Positions 18,766 through 53,275 of a DNA stretch of 53,281 nucleotides are shown here, piece after piece (the stretch's first letter is position 1; every line of letters starts with the position of its first letter). The stretch comes from Desulfuromonadales bacterium (GTDB lineage: Bacteria; Desulfobacterota; Desulfuromonadia; Desulfuromonadales; JACZKF01). The notes below the pieces were generated by a model. The model worked only from the letters and a program-made list of their open reading frames with translations, was not told where the DNA came from and searched no databases. Made by a program: the position numbers and the translations under genes. The stretch spans positions 1 to 53,281 of the forward strand of contig JARFUG010000014.1 of the NCBI GenBank assembly GCA_029289095.1, given 5' to 3'.

Positions 18766-18893
18766 ATGTCCCCCCTATGAAATAGGGGGGATGCCTGGAG
18801 GGCAGGGGGGTCCGTTTGAAAGTTGCCGAGGGTGGGCAGTGACCCCCCTGGCTCGTGACGCGAGCCTTCCCCCCTGTTTTATAGGGGGGACAT
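18766..18893. repeat. MITE-like 128-bp dyad element between DUF1015 gene and rnr
   Basis: Perfect 13-bp terminal inverted repeats, ATGTCCCCCCTAT at 18766-18778 and ATAGGGGGGACAT at 18881-18893. Each end can also fold on itself. Internally AGGGGGGTC and GACCCCCCT pair, as do GGCTCG and CGAGCC. No open frame of its own. It looks like a non-autonomous mobile element or REP-like unit; related but not identical to the GGAGGGG elements elsewhere in the window. Confidence 0.7.
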
Positions 18894-18931
18894 ACCTTGT
18901 CCAGTGTAAAATTTGTTTCCGAGATTCTCAC

Positions 18932-21208
18932 ATGCCCCTGACCGCATCCGACATTCTGAAATTCCTAGAGAAGAACGCCTCGCGCCCCCTGACGGTCCGG
19001 GAAATCGTCTCCGGGTTCGATCTCCCGCGTCGCGACCGTTCGCGGGCCGTGCGTCTCATCGAGGAAATGGCGCGCGAGGGGACGCTCGTACGCCTGAAGG
19101 GAGAGCGCTATTCCATCCCTCGCCAGGTGAACCTCGTCACGGGGACCGTTTCGGCCCACCGCGACGGATACGGATTCATCTCCTCGCCGGACCGCCCCGA
19201 CGTCTTCATCCCTGCCCGCTACATGCGCGAGGTCATGCATGGCGACCGGGTCGTGGTGCGGGTCGAGCGCGGCTGGCGCGGCGCAAAACCGGAGGGGAGG
19301 GTGATCCGCGTTCTCGATCGCGTCCACCAGACGGTCGTCGGAAGGTACGAGGCGGGTCCCCGCTTCGGATACGTCGTTCCCCTCGATCCCCGCCTGACCC
19401 ACGACGTCTATATCGCCGAGGGGGAGAGTTTCGGTGCGAGACCTGGGCAGATCGTCATCGCCCGCATCGACGCCTACCCGGAGCGGAACCGAAACCCCGA
19501 AGGGGCGATCATCCAGGTGCTTGGCGCTGCCGACGATCCGGAAGTCGAGATCCTCACCATCGTCCACAAGCACGGACTCCCCTACGAATTCCCCCCCGAA
19601 GTGCTCGATGAAGCCGCCGTCGTTCCCGACCGGGTGCGCGACGAGGACAGGAAAGGACGCAGGGATCTGCGCGACATCCCCCTGGTGACCATCGACGGCG
19701 AGACGGCGAAGGATTTCGATGATGCGGTGGCCGTGCGCGACGAAGGGGAGGGGAGAGTGCGCCTCTGGGTCGCCATCGCCGACGTCGCCCACTATGTGGC
19801 CGAAGGAAGCCCCATCGACCGCGAGGCCTACGAGCGATCGACGAGCGTCTATTTTCCAGGACGGGCCGTTCCGATGCTCCCCGAAGCTCTGAGCAACGGG
19901 ATCTGCTCCCTTAACCCCGACGTCGAGCGTCTCGCCATGACGGCCGAGATTCTCTTCGATGCGCAAGGGGCGCGCCTCGAAAGCTCCTTTTATCCCGCGG
20001 TGATTCGCAGCCGGGCGCGCCTGACCTACACCGAGGTCTGGGAGGTGCTGAAGAACGACGGCGAGAGCCCCGCCATTGACGAGGAATTGAGGGGCGGCCT
20101 CCGCCTCATGCGTTCTCTGGCCGAGCGCCTGACCGCCATGAGACGCACGCGCGGAAGTCTCGATTTCGATCTCCCCGAAGCCGAAATCATTCTCGACCTG
20201 CGGGGGAAACCCGAAAATATCGTCCGCGCCGAGCGCAACGCCGCGCACCGCCTCATCGAAGAATTCATGCTTGCCGCCAATGAGGCCGTCGCCGCCTTTC
20301 TGAGCGCCCGCGAGACGCCCATCCTCTATCGGGTCCACGATCCCCCGGCGCCGGAGAAACTGCAGGCTTTTCAGCAGTTCGTCGCCAACTTTAATTACGG
20401 TCTCGTCCTCGAAGACGGCGGCGTCGACCCGCGCCGTCTGCAGGCCCTTCTGGCCGAGGTCGAGGGCAAACCCGAAGAGCGCATGATCAACCAGGTTCTG
20501 CTGCGCAGCATGCGGCAGGCCCGCTACGCACCGGAGAATACAGGACATTTCGGTCTCGCCGCTGATCTCTACTGCCACTTCACCTCTCCGATTCGTCGCT
20601 ACCCCGATCTCATGGTCCACAGGACGTTGAAAAAGGAGCTGACTCGCCGCTCCAGCGCAGCGCATCGGGCCAGGCTCGAAAAGACCCTTCCGACAGCCGG
20701 CGAGCACACCTCGCAGATGGAGCGCCGCGCTATGGAAGCGGAGCGCGAGGTTATCGACCTGAAGAAGTGTCAGTTCATGGCCGACAAGGTGGGCGAGGTT
20801 TTCGATGGCTTCGTTTCCGGGGTGCAGCCCTTCGGTTTCTTCGTCGAACTCAAGGACTATTTCGTCGAGGGGCTGGTGCGCGTCTCATCTCTCCTCGATG
20901 ATTTCTACGAGTACGAAGAGGACCTGCACCGCCTCATCGGCCAGAACCGACGCCGCCAGTTTCAGATCGGCAGCCCCGTACAGGTCACCGTCCAGTCGGT
21001 CAATCTCGACAGGCGAGAGATCGACTTCGCCCTCGCTTTTGAAGGCGGAGGACAAAGGACGGAGGACCGCAAAGGACAGAGGACAGAGGACGGACGACAG
21101 AGGACGGGCGCAAAAGATCGAGGACGGAGGACGGACGACAGAAGGCAGAAGACCGAAAAAGATCGAGGACGGACGACGGATGACAGAGGACGGAGGAAAA
21201 GCAGATGA
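18932..21208 (+). CDS. rnr: Ribonuclease R (RNase II/R family exoribonuclease)
   Basis: A 758-residue 3'-to-5' exoribonuclease. Order of domains: winged-helix N-terminal domain (TASDILKFLEKNASRPLTV), two cold-shock OB folds (VSAHRDGYGFI, about 70-200), the RNB catalytic domain (DGETAKDFDDAVAV with the metal-binding Asp cluster, about 245-570) and an S1 domain (GEVFDGFVSGVQPFGFFVEL). From about residue 706 the sequence becomes a tail of Arg, Asp, Glu, Lys, Thr and Gln encoded by a degenerate 7-base repeat (21050-21206). The ATG at 18932 was chosen for alignment with the family; an upstream in-frame start at 18791 lies inside the mobile-like element. The basic tail may still bind RNA. Confidence 0.93.
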   Translation: MPLTASDILKFLEKNASRPLTVREIVSGFDLPRRDRSRAVRLIEEMAREGTLVRLKGERYSIPRQVNLVTGTVSAHRDGYGFISSPDRPDVFIPARYMREVMHGDRVVVRVERGWRGAKPEGRVIRVLDRVHQTVVGRYEAGPRFGYVVPLDPRLTHDVYIAEGESFGARPGQIVIARIDAYPERNRNPEGAIIQVLGAADDPEVEILTIVHKHGLPYEFPPEVLDEAAVVPDRVRDEDRKGRRDLRDIPLVTIDGETAKDFDDAVAVRDEGEGRVRLWVAIADVAHYVAEGSPIDREAYERSTSVYFPGRAVPMLPEALSNGICSLNPDVERLAMTAEILFDAQGARLESSFYPAVIRSRARLTYTEVWEVLKNDGESPAIDEELRGGLRLMRSLAERLTAMRRTRGSLDFDLPEAEIILDLRGKPENIVRAERNAAHRLIEEFMLAANEAVAAFLSARETPILYRVHDPPAPEKLQAFQQFVANFNYGLVLEDGGVDPRRLQALLAEVEGKPEERMINQVLLRSMRQARYAPENTGHFGLAADLYCHFTSPIRRYPDLMVHRTLKKELTRRSSAAHRARLEKTLPTAGEHTSQMERRAMEAEREVIDLKKCQFMADKVGEVFDGFVSGVQPFGFFVELKDYFVEGLVRVSSLLDDFYEYEEDLHRLIGQNRRRQFQIGSPVQVTVQSVNLDRREIDFALAFEGGGQRTEDRKGQRTEDGRQRTGAKDRGRRTDDRRQKTEKDRGRTTDDRGRRKSR

Positions 21209-21251
21209 CCCTGCGCCCTTGCTGTCCTCCGTCCTCTGTCCTCTGTCCTCA
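21050..21251. repeat. Heptanucleotide array, purine arm in rnr and pyrimidine arm after it
   Basis: Words such as GGACAGA, GGACGGA and CGACAGA recur at mostly 7-base spacing from 21050 to about 21195, inside the rnr reading frame. From about 21222 to 21251 the complementary CTGTCCT/CCGTCCT words follow, so the two arms can pair. Because 7 is not a multiple of 3, the encoded peptide has a 7-residue pseudo-repeat. Confidence 0.85.
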
Positions 21252-21267
21252 GGCCCCAGAGATCTGA

Positions 21268-24992: not shown

Positions 24993-25004
<12 letters not shown>

Positions 25005-25038
25005 GCTGCACGCCTTGGCGTGCAGCTCAATCATCGGC
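24993..25038. repeat. Perfect 22-bp palindrome across the pilB stop codon
   Basis: Bases 24993-25014 are an exact inverted copy of 25017-25038, with only TT between. It covers the last pilB codons and the stop. No T-run follows, so it is not a standard terminator; it may be an mRNA-stabilising hairpin or half of a duplicated gene end. Confidence 0.9.
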
Positions 25039-25042
25039 GTAG

Positions 25043-25152
25043 CCAGAATCCAGAATCCAGGAGCCAGGAGTAGAATCAAAAACCTGAAACCTGAAACCTG
25101 GGATGTGGACCTGGCCTTTGTATTTCTCCTGGCTTCTGGCTTCTGGATTCTG
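25043..25152. repeat. Inverted heptanucleotide arrays before pilT
   Basis: The left arm 25043-25070 has CCAGAAT and CCAGGAG words; the right arm 25126-25152 has CTCCTGG, CTTCTGG and ATTCTGC. The arms pair at about 25 of 28 positions. Between them are ACCTGAA words, also 7-base. The right arm ends about 20 bases before the pilT start. Confidence 0.85.
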
Positions 25153-26344: not shown

Positions 26345-26493
26345 TTGGTGTCTTGGAGCGTGGTGGTGGGTCTTTGGATTTTTGCGATTTGATCAAAGGT
26401 TAAAGGTAAAAGCTTCACGACGGATTCATTGTGATGGTAGACGGTCGGGCCTGGGTTTCTCCTGGCTCCCGGCTACTGGCTCCTGGATACTGC
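26345..26493. repeat. Heptanucleotide words before pilC
   Basis: The clearest part is 26459-26493: five uninterrupted 7-base words including CTCCTGG and ending ATACTGC, 17 bases before the pilC start. Weaker 7-base periodicity (TTGG words near 26345-26380, AAAGGTT/AAAGGTA near 26394-26410) lies upstream in the same gap. Confidence 0.75.
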
Positions 26494-37422: not shown

Positions 37423-37485
37423 CTCCTCACTCCTCTGCCCTCTGTCCTCTGTCCTTGCCTCTTGCTCCTGGCTCCTGGCTCCCGC
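37423..37485. repeat. Nine-word heptanucleotide array after pilD
   Basis: Nine 7-base words without an indel (63 bases). The word changes from CTCCTCA through GTCCTCT to CTCCTGG and CTCCCGC while the phase is kept. It ends 17 bases before the -35 box of the pilM promoter. Confidence 0.9.
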
Positions 37486-40415: not shown

Positions 40416-42632
40416 ATGGTGAATGGCCTTTTCATGCGGACCAGAGGCAAAATCCCGATTCTAACGGCGCTTCTGCTCCTCGTCTGCCTCGGAGGCGTTG
40501 CCGGTGGCGAGGACGCTGCGGCGCCTGACCGCGCCTCTACGGTGACGGCTGTCGAAATCGGCAGCGCACAAACCCTCCTTCAGGCGGACGGCCCCATAGG
40601 TCGCTACCGGTTCTTTCGCCTCGACGAGCCCCACCGGCTCGTCGTCGATCTCTATGATGTCCGCCCCGGGTTCGACGAGCGCTCCTTCTCAGGGACCGGC
40701 GCTCTCGAGCGTGTGCGGGTCGGCATTTTCGACGACAGGACGCGGTTCGTTTTCGATGCGCCTGAGAATGTCGTCGCCTCCGCCCAGGTCCGACCGGAGG
40801 GGAATGCCATCGCCGTCTCCTTCCCGAGCGGCGCCGGGACGGCTTCGGCAGCGGCCGAGCGCCCTCGCGCATCCGCAGCGCCCGTTCCGCCGCCTTCCGC
40901 TTCCCCTCGCATCTCCGTAACGGCCGTCGAATTCGAGGTGAAAGGGGGGAAATCGATCCTGACCGTCGATCTCTCCGGCTCCACAGAGATCGTCGAGCCT
41001 GTCTTCAGCGGGAACGTCGTGCGCTTCGGCGTGGTCAACGCATCCATTGATCGGGCGCTGCGCCGCACCATCGACACGTCCGCCTTCCCAAGCGCCATCC
41101 TGCGAATCACCCCCTATACGGCTCTTGAACATGGCCGGCAGGAGGTTCGATTCGCCACGGAGCTGAAAGGCGATGTCCCCTATGCCCTTCGCCGAGAAGG
41201 GAACCGCCTCATTTTCGAAGTCGAAAACCGACAGTTCGCCCAGGCCCCTGCGCCCGCTGTCGAGACGCAGAGACTTCCGGTGCTCAATGCCTCGCCCGAA
41301 AGCCGTCCCCGGCCCGAAGCCGCCACCGCTCCTGCTGCCGCGGTTCCTCCTTCAACGGGTTCCCCCGTCATCACGATGACCGGCGCCGAGACCGCCGTCG
41401 CCGCGCCAAGGGGAAGAGAGTACGGCGGCGAGAGGATCTCCCTCGTCTTCGACAACGCCGATATCCGCAGCATCCTTCAGCTCATCGGCGAGGTGAGCAA
41501 CCTCAACATCATCGCCAGCGAGGCGGTCCGCGGAACAGTCACCCTGCGCCTTGTCGACGTTCCCTGGGACCAGGCTCTCGATCTCATTCTCGAAACGAAC
41601 GGTCTCGGGATGCTGCGCGACGGCAACGTCGTGCGCATTCTTCCCCGCGGTGAAATCCGTGCCATGCGTCAGGCGGAGCTCACCGCTGCCCGGGACGAGA
41701 GACAACTCGAGCCGCTTATAACGCAGGTCATCCCCGTTTCCTATGCCGATCTCGGCGCGATCGTCGGACCTTCCCGTGAACTGCTCACCGACCGCGGAAA
41801 GGTCACCGCCGATCCCCGCAACAAGCAGATCATCGTTACTGACATCTCTCCGATCATCGATGAGGTCAGGCGCCTCGTCCGCATTCTCGACACCCCCGAG
41901 CGCCAGGTCATGATCGAGGCGAGGATCGTCGAAGCCAACTCAACCTTCCAGCGCGATCTCGGCGTCCGGTGGGGTATTTCCCACAGGCCTGAAACGGGCG
42001 ATATCAGCCGAATCGATGTCGGCATGGGGGGCGGCTTTCTTGTTCCGCTCCCCGCACCTGGAACTGCCGGCACCTCCGCGGGTCTCGGCAGCGGCATCAC
42101 CTTTGGACGCCTCGGCATCGACAGCACCGTCCTCGATCTGCGCATTTCCGCTCTTGAGAACGCCGGGCACGGCAAGGTCGTCTCCACTCCTCGCGTGACC
42201 ACACTCAACGGCGGCAGGGCATTGATCTCGCAGGGGACGAAAATTCCCTATCAGACCGTGAGCGACCAGGGTACGCAGACGCAGTTCGAGAACGCCGAAC
42301 TGCGCCTTGAAGTCTCTCCGGTCATCAATCCCGACAATAGCGTAATCCTCGATATCCGGGCCTCCAACAGCTCTGTGGGTGCAACCGTGCCCACGGGCCT
42401 CGGAGGCACCGCTATCGCCATCGATGAAAGAAGGGCCGAGACCAAAGTCCTCGTGCGCGACGGCGAGACGACGGTCATTGGCGGCATCTTCGTCGAGAGC
42501 GAGCGCGAGAGCGAGGTTGGAGTTCCCCTGCTCATGAGGGTCCCCATTCTCGGTCACTTCTTCAAGTCGACCACGACGGCCAGCGAGCGCCGCGAACTGC
42601 TCGTCTTCATCACGCCGCGCATTTTGAACTAG
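40416..42632 (+). CDS. pilQ: Type IV pilus secretin PilQ
   Basis: A 738-residue outer-membrane secretin with a signal peptide, two AMIN domains (about 40-135 and 165-270) that bind peptidoglycan in homologues, a Pro/Ala linker, an STN/N0 domain (VFDNADIRSILQLIGEVSNL), an N1 domain with IIVTDISP, and the secretin domain from about 490 (VMIEARIVEANSTFQRDLGV, and ERRELLVFITPRIL at the end). It forms the exit channel for the pilus. AAGGAG lies nine bases upstream of the ATG at 40416. Confidence 0.96.
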   Translation: MVNGLFMRTRGKIPILTALLLLVCLGGVAGGEDAAAPDRASTVTAVEIGSAQTLLQADGPIGRYRFFRLDEPHRLVVDLYDVRPGFDERSFSGTGALERVRVGIFDDRTRFVFDAPENVVASAQVRPEGNAIAVSFPSGAGTASAAAERPRASAAPVPPPSASPRISVTAVEFEVKGGKSILTVDLSGSTEIVEPVFSGNVVRFGVVNASIDRALRRTIDTSAFPSAILRITPYTALEHGRQEVRFATELKGDVPYALRREGNRLIFEVENRQFAQAPAPAVETQRLPVLNASPESRPRPEAATAPAAAVPPSTGSPVITMTGAETAVAAPRGREYGGERISLVFDNADIRSILQLIGEVSNLNIIASEAVRGTVTLRLVDVPWDQALDLILETNGLGMLRDGNVVRILPRGEIRAMRQAELTAARDERQLEPLITQVIPVSYADLGAIVGPSRELLTDRGKVTADPRNKQIIVTDISPIIDEVRRLVRILDTPERQVMIEARIVEANSTFQRDLGVRWGISHRPETGDISRIDVGMGGGFLVPLPAPGTAGTSAGLGSGITFGRLGIDSTVLDLRISALENAGHGKVVSTPRVTTLNGGRALISQGTKIPYQTVSDQGTQTQFENAELRLEVSPVINPDNSVILDIRASNSSVGATVPTGLGGTAIAIDERRAETKVLVRDGETTVIGGIFVESERESEVGVPLLMRVPILGHFFKSTTTASERRELLVFITPRILN

Positions 42633-42642
42633 TGTAAGATCG

Positions 42643-42663
42643 GTGACTGGTGACTGGTGACTG
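42643..42663. repeat. Three-copy heptanucleotide repeat after pilQ
   Basis: GTGACTG three times in perfect tandem, starting 11 bases after the pilQ stop. Confidence 0.8.
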
Positions 42664-42712
42664 GCGGGTTTGCTTCTGGATGTGAGCTTCTGTAAAATCT
42701 GATTGATCTCCG

Positions 42713-47731: not shown

Positions 47732-47794
47732 TTTTGAATTTTGAATTAATCTAGAGATTGCCTTGGCTTTGGCCTTGAGCCTCGGGCCTTGCGC
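47732..47794. repeat. Nine-word heptanucleotide array between accB and accC
   Basis: TTTTGAA twice, then degenerate words leading to GCCTTGG, CTTTGGC and CTCGGGC, all in one 7-base phase for 63 bases. It ends 19 bases before the accC start and just before GGAG. Confidence 0.85.
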
Positions 47795-47813
47795 CTGTTT
47801 TCGGAGAAAACCC

Positions 47814-51139: not shown

Positions 51140-51285
51140 TCCCCCTCCCTGATTAGGAGGGGGCGGGGGGGTGGTAGAGACCGAGCAGATCTTACCACCC
51201 CCGACCCCTCCTAAAATAGGAGGGGAGAAAAACATGTCTTCCGTCCTTCCCTTTAGCTCTTGGACTCCTGACTCCTGGATACTGC
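51140..51285. repeat. GGAGGGG triple-dyad element plus heptanucleotide array before HAD gene
   Basis: 51140-51229 has the dyads CCCCTCCCTGATTAGGAGGGG, GGGGGTGGTA...TACCACCCCC and CCCCTCCTAAAATAGGAGGGG. From 51236 there are 7-base words (GTCTTCC, GTCCTTC, CTCTTGG), one inserted base, then CTCCTGG and ATACTGC up to three bases before the ATG at 51288. Confidence 0.85.
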
Positions 51286-51287
51286 CT

Positions 51288-51905
51288 ATGACCTTCCGCG
51301 GCATCGTCTTCGACTGCGACGGCGTTCTTTTCGAGAGCCGTCAGGCGAATCTTGTCTTCTACAACACCGTCCTTGCGCATTTCGGCCGACCCCCGATACG
51401 GGAGGACGACCGGGAAACGTGTCACCTGTGCCATACCGCCGCCAGCCCGCAGGTCCTTGCCGCCCTCTTCGGCGAGGAGGAGGGGGAAAGGGCGCTCGCC
51501 TATTCCGCCACCCTCGACTACCGCGACTTCATCCCCTATATGATCCCCGAGCCGGGGATGATCCAGGGGCTATCCGAACTCTCCCGGCGCTATCCGCTCG
51601 CAGTCGCCACCAACCGGGGGACAAGCATGCCGGAGATTTTAAAGCACTTCGACCTGACCGATCATTTCAGCGCCGTTGTCACCAGCCGGGACGTGCCGCG
51701 CCCCAAACCGCACCCGGACATGCTCCACCTGGCGGCCAAACGCCTCGGATTCAGGGAGGAAGAACTCCTCTTCGTCGGGGATTCGGAGCTCGACCGTCGC
51801 GCCGCCCAGGCCGCCGGAATGCCCTTCGCCGCCTACAAGTGGGACGGCAGCGATCTGAGGGTCGATGGATATTTTGAGTTGATGAGGTTGTTGTTGGAAG
51901 GTTGA
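51288..51905 (+). CDS. HAD-superfamily hydrolase (phosphoglycolate phosphatase-like)
   Basis: A 205-residue phosphatase with motif I VFDCDGVLFES (nucleophile Asp), motif II AVATNRG, motif III region RPKPHPDML and motif IV VGDSELDRRAAQAAG. The cap contains CHLCH, a chance CxxCH with no export signal. ATG 51288 aligns best with the family; an in-frame ATG at 51234 with a strong GGAGGGGAG site would add 18 residues encoded by repeat DNA. Substrate unknown. Confidence 0.88.
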   Translation: MTFRGIVFDCDGVLFESRQANLVFYNTVLAHFGRPPIREDDRETCHLCHTAASPQVLAALFGEEEGERALAYSATLDYRDFIPYMIPEPGMIQGLSELSRRYPLAVATNRGTSMPEILKHFDLTDHFSAVVTSRDVPRPKPHPDMLHLAAKRLGFREEELLFVGDSELDRRAAQAAGMPFAAYKWDGSDLRVDGYFELMRLLLEG

Positions 51906-51918
51906 CCTTGAAGGGCAA

Positions 51919-52009
51919 TTTTGAATTTTGAATTGAATCTTGAACCTTTGGCCTTTCACCTCTGTCGTCCGTCCTCCGTCCTCCGTCCTCTGGCTCCCAA
52001 CTCCCGCCC
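51919..52009. repeat. Thirteen-word heptanucleotide array between HAD and rsbW-like genes
   Basis: Thirteen consecutive 7-base words with no indel (91 bases). The text drifts from TTTTGAA to TTTGGCC, then TCCGTCC, and finally CCCAACT and CCCGCCC, in one phase. It fills the space between convergent genes. Confidence 0.92.
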
Positions 52010-52012
52010 TTC

Positions 52013-52441
52013 TCACTTCATCATCTTGTTCAACGACTTCACCATCTCCAGAACATGCCCCCCGTTGTACTTTCGGTAGCTGACCTGGTCCATGAGGGTT
52101 CGGATGATGTAGACGCCGCGGCCGTGCTCGTCGAGATGGTCTGCGTGGCGCAGGCTCGAGATGTCGAATCCCTGCCCCTGGTCGTAGACCTTGATGTTCA
52201 GGTTGCGGTCGAGGATGGTGATGGTGATGTGGACTTCCTTCTCCGGATCTCCTTCATTGGCATGCTGAATCGCATTGGTCATCGCCTCGGTCAGGACGAG
52301 GTTGATGTGGTAGGCCAGCTCTTCCCGGTCGCCATGATACCGCCTCAGGGTTCTGGCGATGTCTTCGCCGATCCTGCCGATCAGACTCAGATAACGGGTC
52401 TGATTGGGAACCTTGATGTCGACTTCGATCTTTTCTTTCAT
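52013..52441 (-). CDS. RsbW-like anti-sigma/serine kinase (HATPase)
   Basis: A 142-residue GHKL ATPase of the RsbW/SpoIIAB family: ELAYHINLVLTEAMTNAIQHAN (N box), ILDRNLNIKVYDQGQGFD (G1 box) and DEHGRGVYIIRTLMD (G2 region). Such proteins bind a sigma factor or phosphorylate a STAS partner. The upstream gene on the same strand encodes that kind of STAS protein. No target sigma factor is in the window; in this group the pair may instead serve a PP2C-type phosphatase pathway elsewhere. GAGG lies before the start. Confidence 0.9.
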   Translation of the reverse strand: MKEKIEVDIKVPNQTRYLSLIGRIGEDIARTLRRYHGDREELAYHINLVLTEAMTNAIQHANEGDPEKEVHITITILDRNLNIKVYDQGQGFDISSLRHADHLDEHGRGVYIIRTLMDQVSYRKYNGGHVLEMVKSLNKMMK

Positions 52442-52496
52442 GTAATCCTCGACAGGTAAGGCGGTTCGGCGACCAACGCTCCCCGCGGGGGTGAAT

Positions 52497-52832
52497 CTAG
52501 AAGCTTGCGACGGCTTCCTGGGACGTAGGGAAGATCTCGAAGACCCTGTGCAGACGCGTCAGCTCGAACATCGATTTGACCTGGGGCTGAAGGCCGCTCA
52601 GCTTGAGGTTTCCATTGCGGGCGCTGGCATTCTTGAAGCCGGAAACGAGCGCGCCGAGGCCGGATGAGTCGACGAAGCGCACTTCGTGCAGATCGATGAC
52701 GATGCTCGCCTTCCCTTCCTCAAAGAGATGCAGCATCTGAGCCTTCAGTTCCCCGCTGTTATGGGCATCCAGACGTTCTTCCTTGATCTCGATCAGAACC
52801 ACGGCTCCCTGCTCTTCGATATGGACGATCAT
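52497..52832 (-). CDS. STAS-domain anti-sigma factor antagonist
   Basis: A 111-residue SpoIIAA/RsbV-like protein: AVVLIEIKEERLDAHNSGEL, then VIDLHEVRFVDSSGLGALVSG with the phosphorylatable serine at position 57. It would free a partner from the RsbW-like kinase when dephosphorylated. The start at 52832 is decided by GGAGA five bases upstream; an ATG at 52880 is in frame but lacks this. It precedes the kinase gene by 55 bases, likely one operon. Confidence 0.9.
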   Translation of the reverse strand: MIVHIEEQGAVVLIEIKEERLDAHNSGELKAQMLHLFEEGKASIVIDLHEVRFVDSSGLGALVSGFKNASARNGNLKLSGLQPQVKSMFELTRLHRVFEIFPTSQEAVASF

Positions 52833-52911
52833 TCCAGTCTCCTTTATGTCGTATTTGTCAGCGTCTGTTTTCAATAACATATCATAGAAAATCGGGGTCT
52901 GACCAGCTTAT

Positions 52912-53016
52912 GCAGAATCCAGAATCCAGAATCCAGGAGCCAGGAGCCAGGAGAAAATCAGGTTCGAGGCCCGAGGCCCGAGGCCGGAGGCAAAAGGCCA
53001 AAGGGTTTAATTCAAA
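52912..53016. repeat. Fifteen-word heptanucleotide array upstream of STAS gene
   Basis: Fifteen in-phase 7-base words (105 bases). Read on the minus strand toward the STAS gene, it passes from TTTGGCC and TCGGGCC words to CTCCTGG three times and ends in ATTCTGG/ATTCTGC, the same ending as the arrays before pilT and pilC. It ends about 80 bases before the start codon. Confidence 0.92.
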
Positions 53017-53027
53017 AAATTACCCGA

Positions 53028-53190
53028 TTAGTACTGATCTTCCGCATGGGTCTTCTCCCCCTCCTGGATCAGGAGGGGGGCGGGGGGTGGTAGAGATCAA
53101 GAAGACCTTACCACCCCCAGCCCCTCCTAAAATAGGAGGGGAGAAAATACGCCTCACCTTACCCCTTCTCGGGAAGGGGATATTTTTGGA
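53028..53190. repeat. GGAGGGG triple-dyad element with long flanks
   Basis: Starts ATTAGTACTGATCTTCCGC (shared with 45728), then CCCCTCCTGGATCAGGAGG dyad, GGGGGTGGTA...TACCACCCCC, and CCCCTCCTAAAATAGGAGGGG. GGGAAGGGGATATTTTTGGA downstream resembles text after the copy at 45850. The 450-base end of the window holds no gene. Confidence 0.88.
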
Positions 53191-53226
53191 ATCTGCGGAA
53201 GATTCGTTCTATTCAGGAAAAATTAT

Positions 53227-53275
53227 TCCGTCCTCCGTCCACCGTCCCTTAACTCCCAACTCCCGCCCGTCACTC
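53227..53275. repeat. Heptanucleotide array at right edge
   Basis: Seven in-phase words: TCCGTCC-type words, then CCCAACT and CCCGCCC, the same order as in the array at 51975-52009. It may continue past the window. Confidence 0.85.

Follow-up and report, generated by a model that had tools for sequence, protein, structure and literature searches.

Tandem 7-base words (heptads) stand in arrays between the genes of this Desulfuromonadales genome, and the rules of placement and strand that they follow are new here. A putative RNA stem-loop role is the best reading of their placement, strand polarity and arm matching. Whether the arrays are, in full, dispersed and fast-evolving intercistronic stem-loop elements with tandem 7-base arms and a putative REP/BIME-like role, without being REPs, we regard as an even call. 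An origin by turnover of 7-nt units together with copying between loci is well supported, and a neutral origin is the main rival.

In many bacteria, no intergenic tandem repeat is commoner than that of period 7 (PMC6344855). The question of why seven is now testable, with unrelated heptads in the same gap, strict placement and strand, and a 7-nt step in close species pairs. If the RNA reading holds, the arrays would tune operons as a REP-like layer that each species evolves afresh, with no conserved sequence for a homology search to find. If the mutational reading holds, they would measure a 7-nt step inherent in the copying of bacterial DNA.

DNA analysed

The window is one contig, 53,281 nt in full, of a 3.5-Mb home genome in 154 contigs; 1.26 Mb of this genome was analysed, and the count of lag-7 segments against shuffles covered 750 kb with 95 kb noncoding. 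The PilB of the window shares 77-86% identity with proteins of Desulfuromonadales (Geoalkalibacter, Desulfuromonas, Geobacter), which places the organism in this group. For comparison we used Desulfuromonas sp. CSMB_57 (G030; 395 kb), a third species (G033; 310 kb), 80 PilB loci of other species, and smaller samples of a same-family genome (G001) and a same-order genome (G020). As a home-made dicodon finder supplied the gene calls, some gap borders are approximate.

Heptad arrays of the window

The arrays and related features of the window are as follows, R-rich meaning purine-rich and Y-rich pyrimidine-rich.

21040..21259, plus strand: R-rich arrays of AGGACGGAGGACA words, reaching into the RNase R gene (18791-21208) at its 3' end
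24993..25038, no strand: perfect palindrome of 22 nt, in which the final pilB codons and stop stand next to their inverted copy
about 25041..25152, plus strand: two heptad arrays in inverted orientation between pilB and pilT, CAGAATCCAGAATCCAGGAGCCAGGAG, spacer, CTCCTGGCTTCTGGCTTCTGGATTCTG
26459..26492, plus strand: Y-rich heptad array CTCCTGGCTCCCGGCTACTGGCTCCTGGATACTG, directly 5' of the pilC ribosome-binding site
37423..37485, plus strand: heptad array of CTCCTCA, CCTCTGT and CTCCTGG, with the prepilin peptidase gene upstream and pilM downstream
42642..42664, plus strand: GGTGACT three times, just past the stop at 42632
47732..47796, plus strand: TTTTGAA twice and a degenerate GCCTTGG/CTTGAGC array, in more than one register
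51917..52009, plus strand: heptad array of TTTTGAA, CCTTTGG, TCTGTCG, TCCGTCC, CTCTGGC and CCCAACT, in the gap where a HAD hydrolase gene (51171-51905, plus) and a HATPase_c_2 gene (52013-52441, minus) converge
52906..53004, minus strand: two adjacent heptad arrays, CAGAATC/CCAGGAG at 52913-52953 and GAGGCCC/GAGGCCA at 52965-53004, upstream of a STAS-domain gene (52497-52880, minus)
53227..53268, plus strand: short array of TCCGTCC and further words, AACTCCC and a final AACTCCCGCCC

The array at 51917..52009 is Y-rich on the plus strand and is thus R-rich right after the stop of the minus-strand HATPase_c_2 gene. Its stretch 51990-52009 repeats the final AACTCCCGCCC of 53227..53268, so that two sites carry one word sequence. 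The two arms of the pilB-pilT pair are 27 nt long and 93% complementary. The palindrome at 24993-25038 suggests, from its sequence, fold-back copying, which may be a source of second arms.

The R-rich arrays at the RNase R 3' end pair with a Y-rich array (21222-21250) before ribF. The 3' end of the gene lies inside an array, and arrays can extend into genes. The RNase R frame entering the array has a low-complexity C-terminal tail after the S1 domain (end of domain at residue 747 of 805).

The period-7 signal across genomes

The first-pass annotation had reported tandem 7-base words in gaps at four places of the window; the words are there, with a lag-7 identity of 0.67-0.75 in three of the four runs. 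The autocorrelation against shuffled controls that it proposed shows an excess across the genome. Noncoding gaps of the home genome hold 108 lag-7 segments (4.5 kb, 4.8% of 95 kb), and shuffled gaps hold 0. Any lag other than a multiple of 7 yields 0-7 segments, near zero throughout, and coding DNA has almost no lag-7 segments. In comparison, G030 has 35 segments against 1 in its shuffle, and G033 has 20, its other lags giving 0-2 when multiples of 7 are set aside. Across the PilB loci of the 80 species, lag 7 gives 30 segments and the other tested lags, again non-multiples of 7, give 0-2. The 44-kb sample of G001, from the same family, has no lag-7 array. These are period-7 noncoding repeats above chance, as in the bacterial heptamer-repeat class (LSSR of Mrazek; SPADE 2018).

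Masking of the called arrays leaves a weak lag-7 signal in co-directional gaps (z 3.9) but none in divergent ones (z -1.5), which is what decayed arrays would give. Heptad arrays also lie at contig ends (L009:1-55, L014:1-54, L018:1-26, L025:11-98, L046:17-55). They thus break the assembly, and the true number and length of the arrays are probably underestimated.

Register is kept between touching words and lost across spacers

The same annotation had described four indel-free runs of 9, 9, 13 and 15 words. The run at 37423-37485 has a lag-7 identity of 0.75. At 51919-52009 the identity is 0.68 (0.67 at 52912-53016; lags 4-6 and 8-10 give 0.17-0.36), and one step is short (TTTTGAA TTTTGAA TTGAA TCTTGAA), so that "without any indel" is not strictly true there. 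The other two are not single phase-locked runs. At 47732-47794 the lag-7 identity is 0.50 and the lag-6 identity 0.47, and neighbouring words in mid-run match at 2, 2, 0 and 2 of 7 positions. The stretch 52912-53016 consists of two arrays broken by AAAATCAGGTTC, with a 12-nt spacer and 1/7 matches on each side of the break, and the relative phase of the two arrays is the worst possible offset.

A complete change of word with the phase kept on a fixed 7-base ruler was the central claim of that annotation. The phase is in fact kept only where words touch and share letters. In the home genome, 41 adjacent runs of different words touch or lie at most 7 nt apart, and 30 of the 41 overlap. All 30 overlapping pairs stand at the best-Hamming register (5 expected); since an overlap by definition means common letters, part of this figure is automatic. 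Of the 30, 13 differ by one base, 10 by two and 7 by three. An overlap of several bases would seldom arise between random joins. Across spacers of at least 15 nt the register is random (3/18 with 3.9 expected, and 0/6 with 1.7 expected). Thus the ruler was overstated, and we rejected a global one.

The main words in a common register are GCTCCTG, GCTTCTG, GATTCTG, TCCTCTG, TCTTCTG, TCTTCCG and GCCTTTG. As they share fixed anchor letters in this register, the "complete" word change is a walk within a degenerate unit, and touching words are variants of a unit such as NNYYCTG. Register is kept between them because such a unit is copied and changed by point mutation. We infer that slippage or duplication would produce copies of 7-nt units, which point mutation would alter before a new round of amplification; neighbouring words would in this way keep register and anchor letters (e.g. 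CTG) while ending up quite different. The second arm, and the multi-word strings found in other gaps, would come from fold-back and ectopic copying.

Vocabulary and sharing of words between loci

The analysed 1.26 Mb of the home genome holds 137 arrays that use 49 words of about 1170 possible. CCTGGCT alone occurs at 46 loci, and 131 of the 194 word-locus events fall in words with at least 5 loci (1.4 expected). G030 uses three words, mainly TTCAGCC, and none is in common with the home genome; its two dominant words are related and lie at 23 and 11 loci. The vocabulary of each genome is thus small and peculiar to it.

In the pilB-pilT gap, most other species among the 80 PilB loci have no array. 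The others carry unrelated heptads (TTTTGAA, CAGTCCC, CGCGCCA, TTCAGCC, GCGGAAT, AGCAGGG and others). Thus the sequence is not conserved, while the period, the place and the strand are. The annotation was therefore right that simple slippage of one word does not account for the arrays: the period of 7 is itself conserved, with unrelated heptads in the same gap of different species. Vertical inheritance of the words at a locus was rejected on the same observation.

Non-periodic 21-mers across word switches recur 194 times at independent loci, against 31-59 times with the heptad order shuffled inside arrays. Most array flanks are unrelated: the 255 flank sequences give 25 similar pairs, and many of these are neighbours or belong to other dispersed repeats. 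We rejected transposon-like copies carried with their flanks. The word order is polarised on the Y strand, with TCYTCYG before GCTCCTG in a ratio of 11:2 and GCTCCTG before GATTCTG in a ratio of 26:9; plain slippage does not predict this. The shared vocabulary and multi-word strings at unlinked loci mean that copying between loci, or selection, is also needed.

An enzyme that adds templated 7-nt units (telomerase-like or another templated polymerase, with genome-specific templates) would account for the words and junctions common to unlinked loci, for the polarised word order and for the two related dominant words of G030. We consider it highly improbable, given 49 words in one genome and the ordinary unit gain and point change that close pairs show inside old arrays; the sole candidate checked, a Y1 transposase, does not track the arrays. 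Only marginally less remote is a dedicated activity that writes or homogenises 7-nt units behind stops, with templates from the genome, polarised spread between gaps and a strand set by transcription. If true, this would be a templated repeat-writing system at operon junctions.

Change between close species

The annotation had suggested comparing the same gaps in relatives, and close species pairs show an exact 7-nt gain and in-register base changes. Between L116 and L121, which are 95.8% identical, the pilB-pilT gap differs by exactly one 7-nt unit and in-register changes (ATCGAAC TTTGAAC CTGGAAC against ATCGAAC TTCGAAC TTCGAAC TTCGAAC, an inserted element being separate). This is the one case of exact unit gain between close species. 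Between G033 and G035 (about 90%), array length and register are kept and the units differ, with no gaps in the arm alignment (CGCGCCG CGCGCTA CGCGCTA CGCGCCA against CGCGCCC CGCGCCT CGCGCTA CGCGCCA). Another arm has diverged far more than its flanks, without an indel. These differences are ordinary unit turnover of tandem repeats.

The gain of 7 nt and the drift in place also suit a neutral by-product, in which slippage has an intrinsic 7-nt step and the arrays survive, without function, where they are least harmful (after stops rather than inside promoters or genes). Among tandem repeats, heptamers rank first in most of the surveyed prokaryotes, and the SPADE authors found no clear clue to their function (PMC6344855). 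Mrazek 2007, cited in PMC4679880 and PMC4692102, proposed a polymerase footprint with an interaction length of 7 nt; for the unit of 7, a property of polymerase slippage has been suggested in print. Unrelated words in the same gap fit as well. Slippage alone gives neither the purine-first polarity nor the matching of arms within a gap (p=2e-4), and it does not explain why dozens of unlinked gaps have words and multi-word strings in common. On balance we hold the neutral account to be possible and somewhat doubtful.

A ~140-bp insert starting GGCGTCGCAAAAAGTCCG lies at the pilB stop codon in the pilB-pilT gap of L121, L098 and L100. In L121 it has ATGATT repeats at both ends, and L116 lacks it; it is a small mobile element. 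G035 also has a sequence of 30-37 nt that is identical at at least 25 places, in both orientations and often in close inverted pairs, and that is also present at L231:8381-8417. This is a REP-like dispersed repeat.

Placement, strand polarity and pairing of the arms

In the home genome, arrays occur in 76 of 659 co-directional gaps (11.5%) and 10 of 101 convergent gaps (9.9%). Divergent gaps are the longest class, yet only 1 of 99 has an array. G030 has arrays in 2 of 23 divergent gaps, so that exclusion from this class is not universal. Within the home genome, 27 segments start 0-4 nt past a stop codon.

The strand of the arrays depends on their position in the gap. The first quarter of co-directional gaps has 38 R-rich and 3 Y-rich segments, and the last quarter has 10 Y-rich and 2 R-rich. 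The same polarity is seen in other species (8:3 and 14:2) and in G033 (4:0 and 7:0), and the layout of G030 is similar, with 9 Y-rich and 0 R-rich segments in the last half of the gap. The typical order is stop, purine heptads, T-run loop, pyrimidine heptads, ribosome-binding site and start. An intrinsic terminator has a GC-rich hairpin with a T-run behind it; the T-run here sits in the loop, 5' of the 3' arm, and the next ribosome-binding site follows the 3' arm.

R and Y arms stand together in 23 gaps, against the roughly 3.5 that the arm counts predict if the two were independent, and the R-then-Y order is found in 26 gaps. Arms of the same gap give a duplex of -34.2 kcal/mol compared with -26.2 kcal/mol for swapped arms (permutation p=2e-4). 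The fold z of array gaps is -2.7 and that of control gaps -1.4. Some R/Y arm pairs bind poorly (-5.9 to -15 kcal/mol). Many gaps are one-armed (34 R-only and 11 Y-only), so that a hairpin is not always possible. We rejected a cistron-circularising pairing, with a Y arm before a gene and an R arm after it: only 4 genes have both, and there is no clear gain over swapped pairs.

Once made in mRNA, the arms may fold. The resulting intercistronic hairpins would act in a REP/BIME-like manner on message stability, on access of Rho to the C-rich arm or on downstream translation, and the purine-first order would hold the C-rich arm paired. Among the three causes that the first-pass annotation offered (an enzyme working in 7-base steps, a protein array reading 7-base units, and selection on the RNA), selection on the RNA is the best supported. 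The array-reading DNA protein is disfavoured by the unrelated words between species and the near absence from divergent gaps.

Relation to known repeats

Cyanobacterial STRR repeats are degenerate tandem heptanucleotides between genes, and the present arrays resemble them in this. By description, another host phylum and other words set them apart. STRR repeats are also cited in PMC4692102. They had been given as the only parallel, which is incorrect, as others exist among prokaryote heptamers (PMC6344855), in Geobacter metallireducens (PMC2700814) and in Xanthomonas (PMC4692102). The best reading is that the present arrays are a multi-word variant of known bacterial heptamer repeats.

The class 3 paired sites of G. 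metallireducens consist of five tandem heptanucleotides MTYCTGA on opposite strands, in 8 pairs with one consensus, and were read as regulator-binding sites (PMC2700814). Both sets come from the same order and show tandem heptads and inverted pairs of variable spacing that lie within an operon, between its genes (proBA in G. metallireducens, pilB-pilT in the home genome). About five paired heptads on opposite strands are found here too, in the 27-nt, 93% complementary arms and the 26 R-then-Y gaps. Of the words, CTCCTGA (listed as ACTCCTG, 4 loci) fits MTYCTGA, the dominant CTCCTGG is one base off and most are further away. The home genome differs in its 137 arrays per 1.26 Mb, its 49 words, the switching inside arrays and the rules of placement and polarity.

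Binding sites with a 7-bp pitch for a DNA-binding protein (a global regulator, HU/IHF type), as proposed for those paired sites, would be in keeping with a genome-specific vocabulary at many loci and with inverted pairs of variable spacing. We think this unlikely: one genome has 49 words, none common to G030, the phase is random across spacers, and only 1 of 99 divergent, promoter-bearing gaps has an array.

The Xanthomonas GGGAATC repeats are intergenic, lie 28 nt from the upstream but 160 nt from the downstream ORF, fall between divergent ORFs in 7-8% of cases and form about 70 convergent inverted pairs, with array length and sequence differing between close species (PMC4692102). The present arrays are likewise intergenic heptads, as are the Nostoc GGGGATT repeats (PMC4692102), and share with GGGAATC the closeness to the upstream ORF, the scarcity in divergent gaps and the inverted pairs. 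The Xanthomonas and Nostoc repeats are one G-rich word, capable of forming a G-quadruplex, whereas here there are many words and the dominant ones lack GGG. The G-quadruplex reading was rejected, as CCAGGAG, CAGAATC, ACAGAGG and GAGGAGT have GG at most and no G3 tract.

The TAACTGA repeats of Beggiatoaceae and cyanobacteria are also dispersed intergenic heptad arrays with a genome-specific word (PMC4679880). In the Beggiatoaceae genome they lie immediately 5' of start codons, and repetition of neighbouring words is rare (PMC4679880); here, in contrast, arrays follow stop codons and related words share one array. Intrastrand triplex motifs (PMC4666352) were rejected: such a motif is a fixed 37 nt and oftener upstream of ORFs, and is thus not the same as the heptad arrays.

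With REP/BIME elements the arrays share many copies, an extragenic position downstream of genes and predicted mRNA stem-loops (gap classes, fold z). They differ in having no conserved 20-40 nt palindrome (49 words, with arms varying by locus) and no RAYT link, and in having arms built of 7-nt arrays that can expand. Mobile elements of the REP type, mobilised by RAYT (TnpA_REP, Y1) transposases, could explain palindromic, extragenic, many-copy arrays downstream of genes, and the home genome has Y1 transposase genes. Still, 13 of the 14 Y1 loci examined lack a nearby heptad array, both home-genome loci included, and no palindrome is conserved. Y1 genes also occur in array-poor relatives; G001 has equally many of them (4), yet its 44-kb sample has no lag-7 array. 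We rejected this mobilisation, which we judge the least probable of all the accounts.

Two further kinds of repeat adjoin or contain heptad arrays. A ~200-bp dispersed element (CCCCTCCTGGATCAGGAGGGG ... CCACCCCCAGCCCCTCC ... TTACCCCTTCTCGGGAAGGGG) lies at 53020-53220 of the window, near 10351 of L036 and near 2350 of L166; it is near-identical in several gaps and often adjoins heptad arrays. Larger tandem duplications of 155 and 183 bp have whole heptad arrays inside them (L015:12131-12330 and L235:8301-8551).
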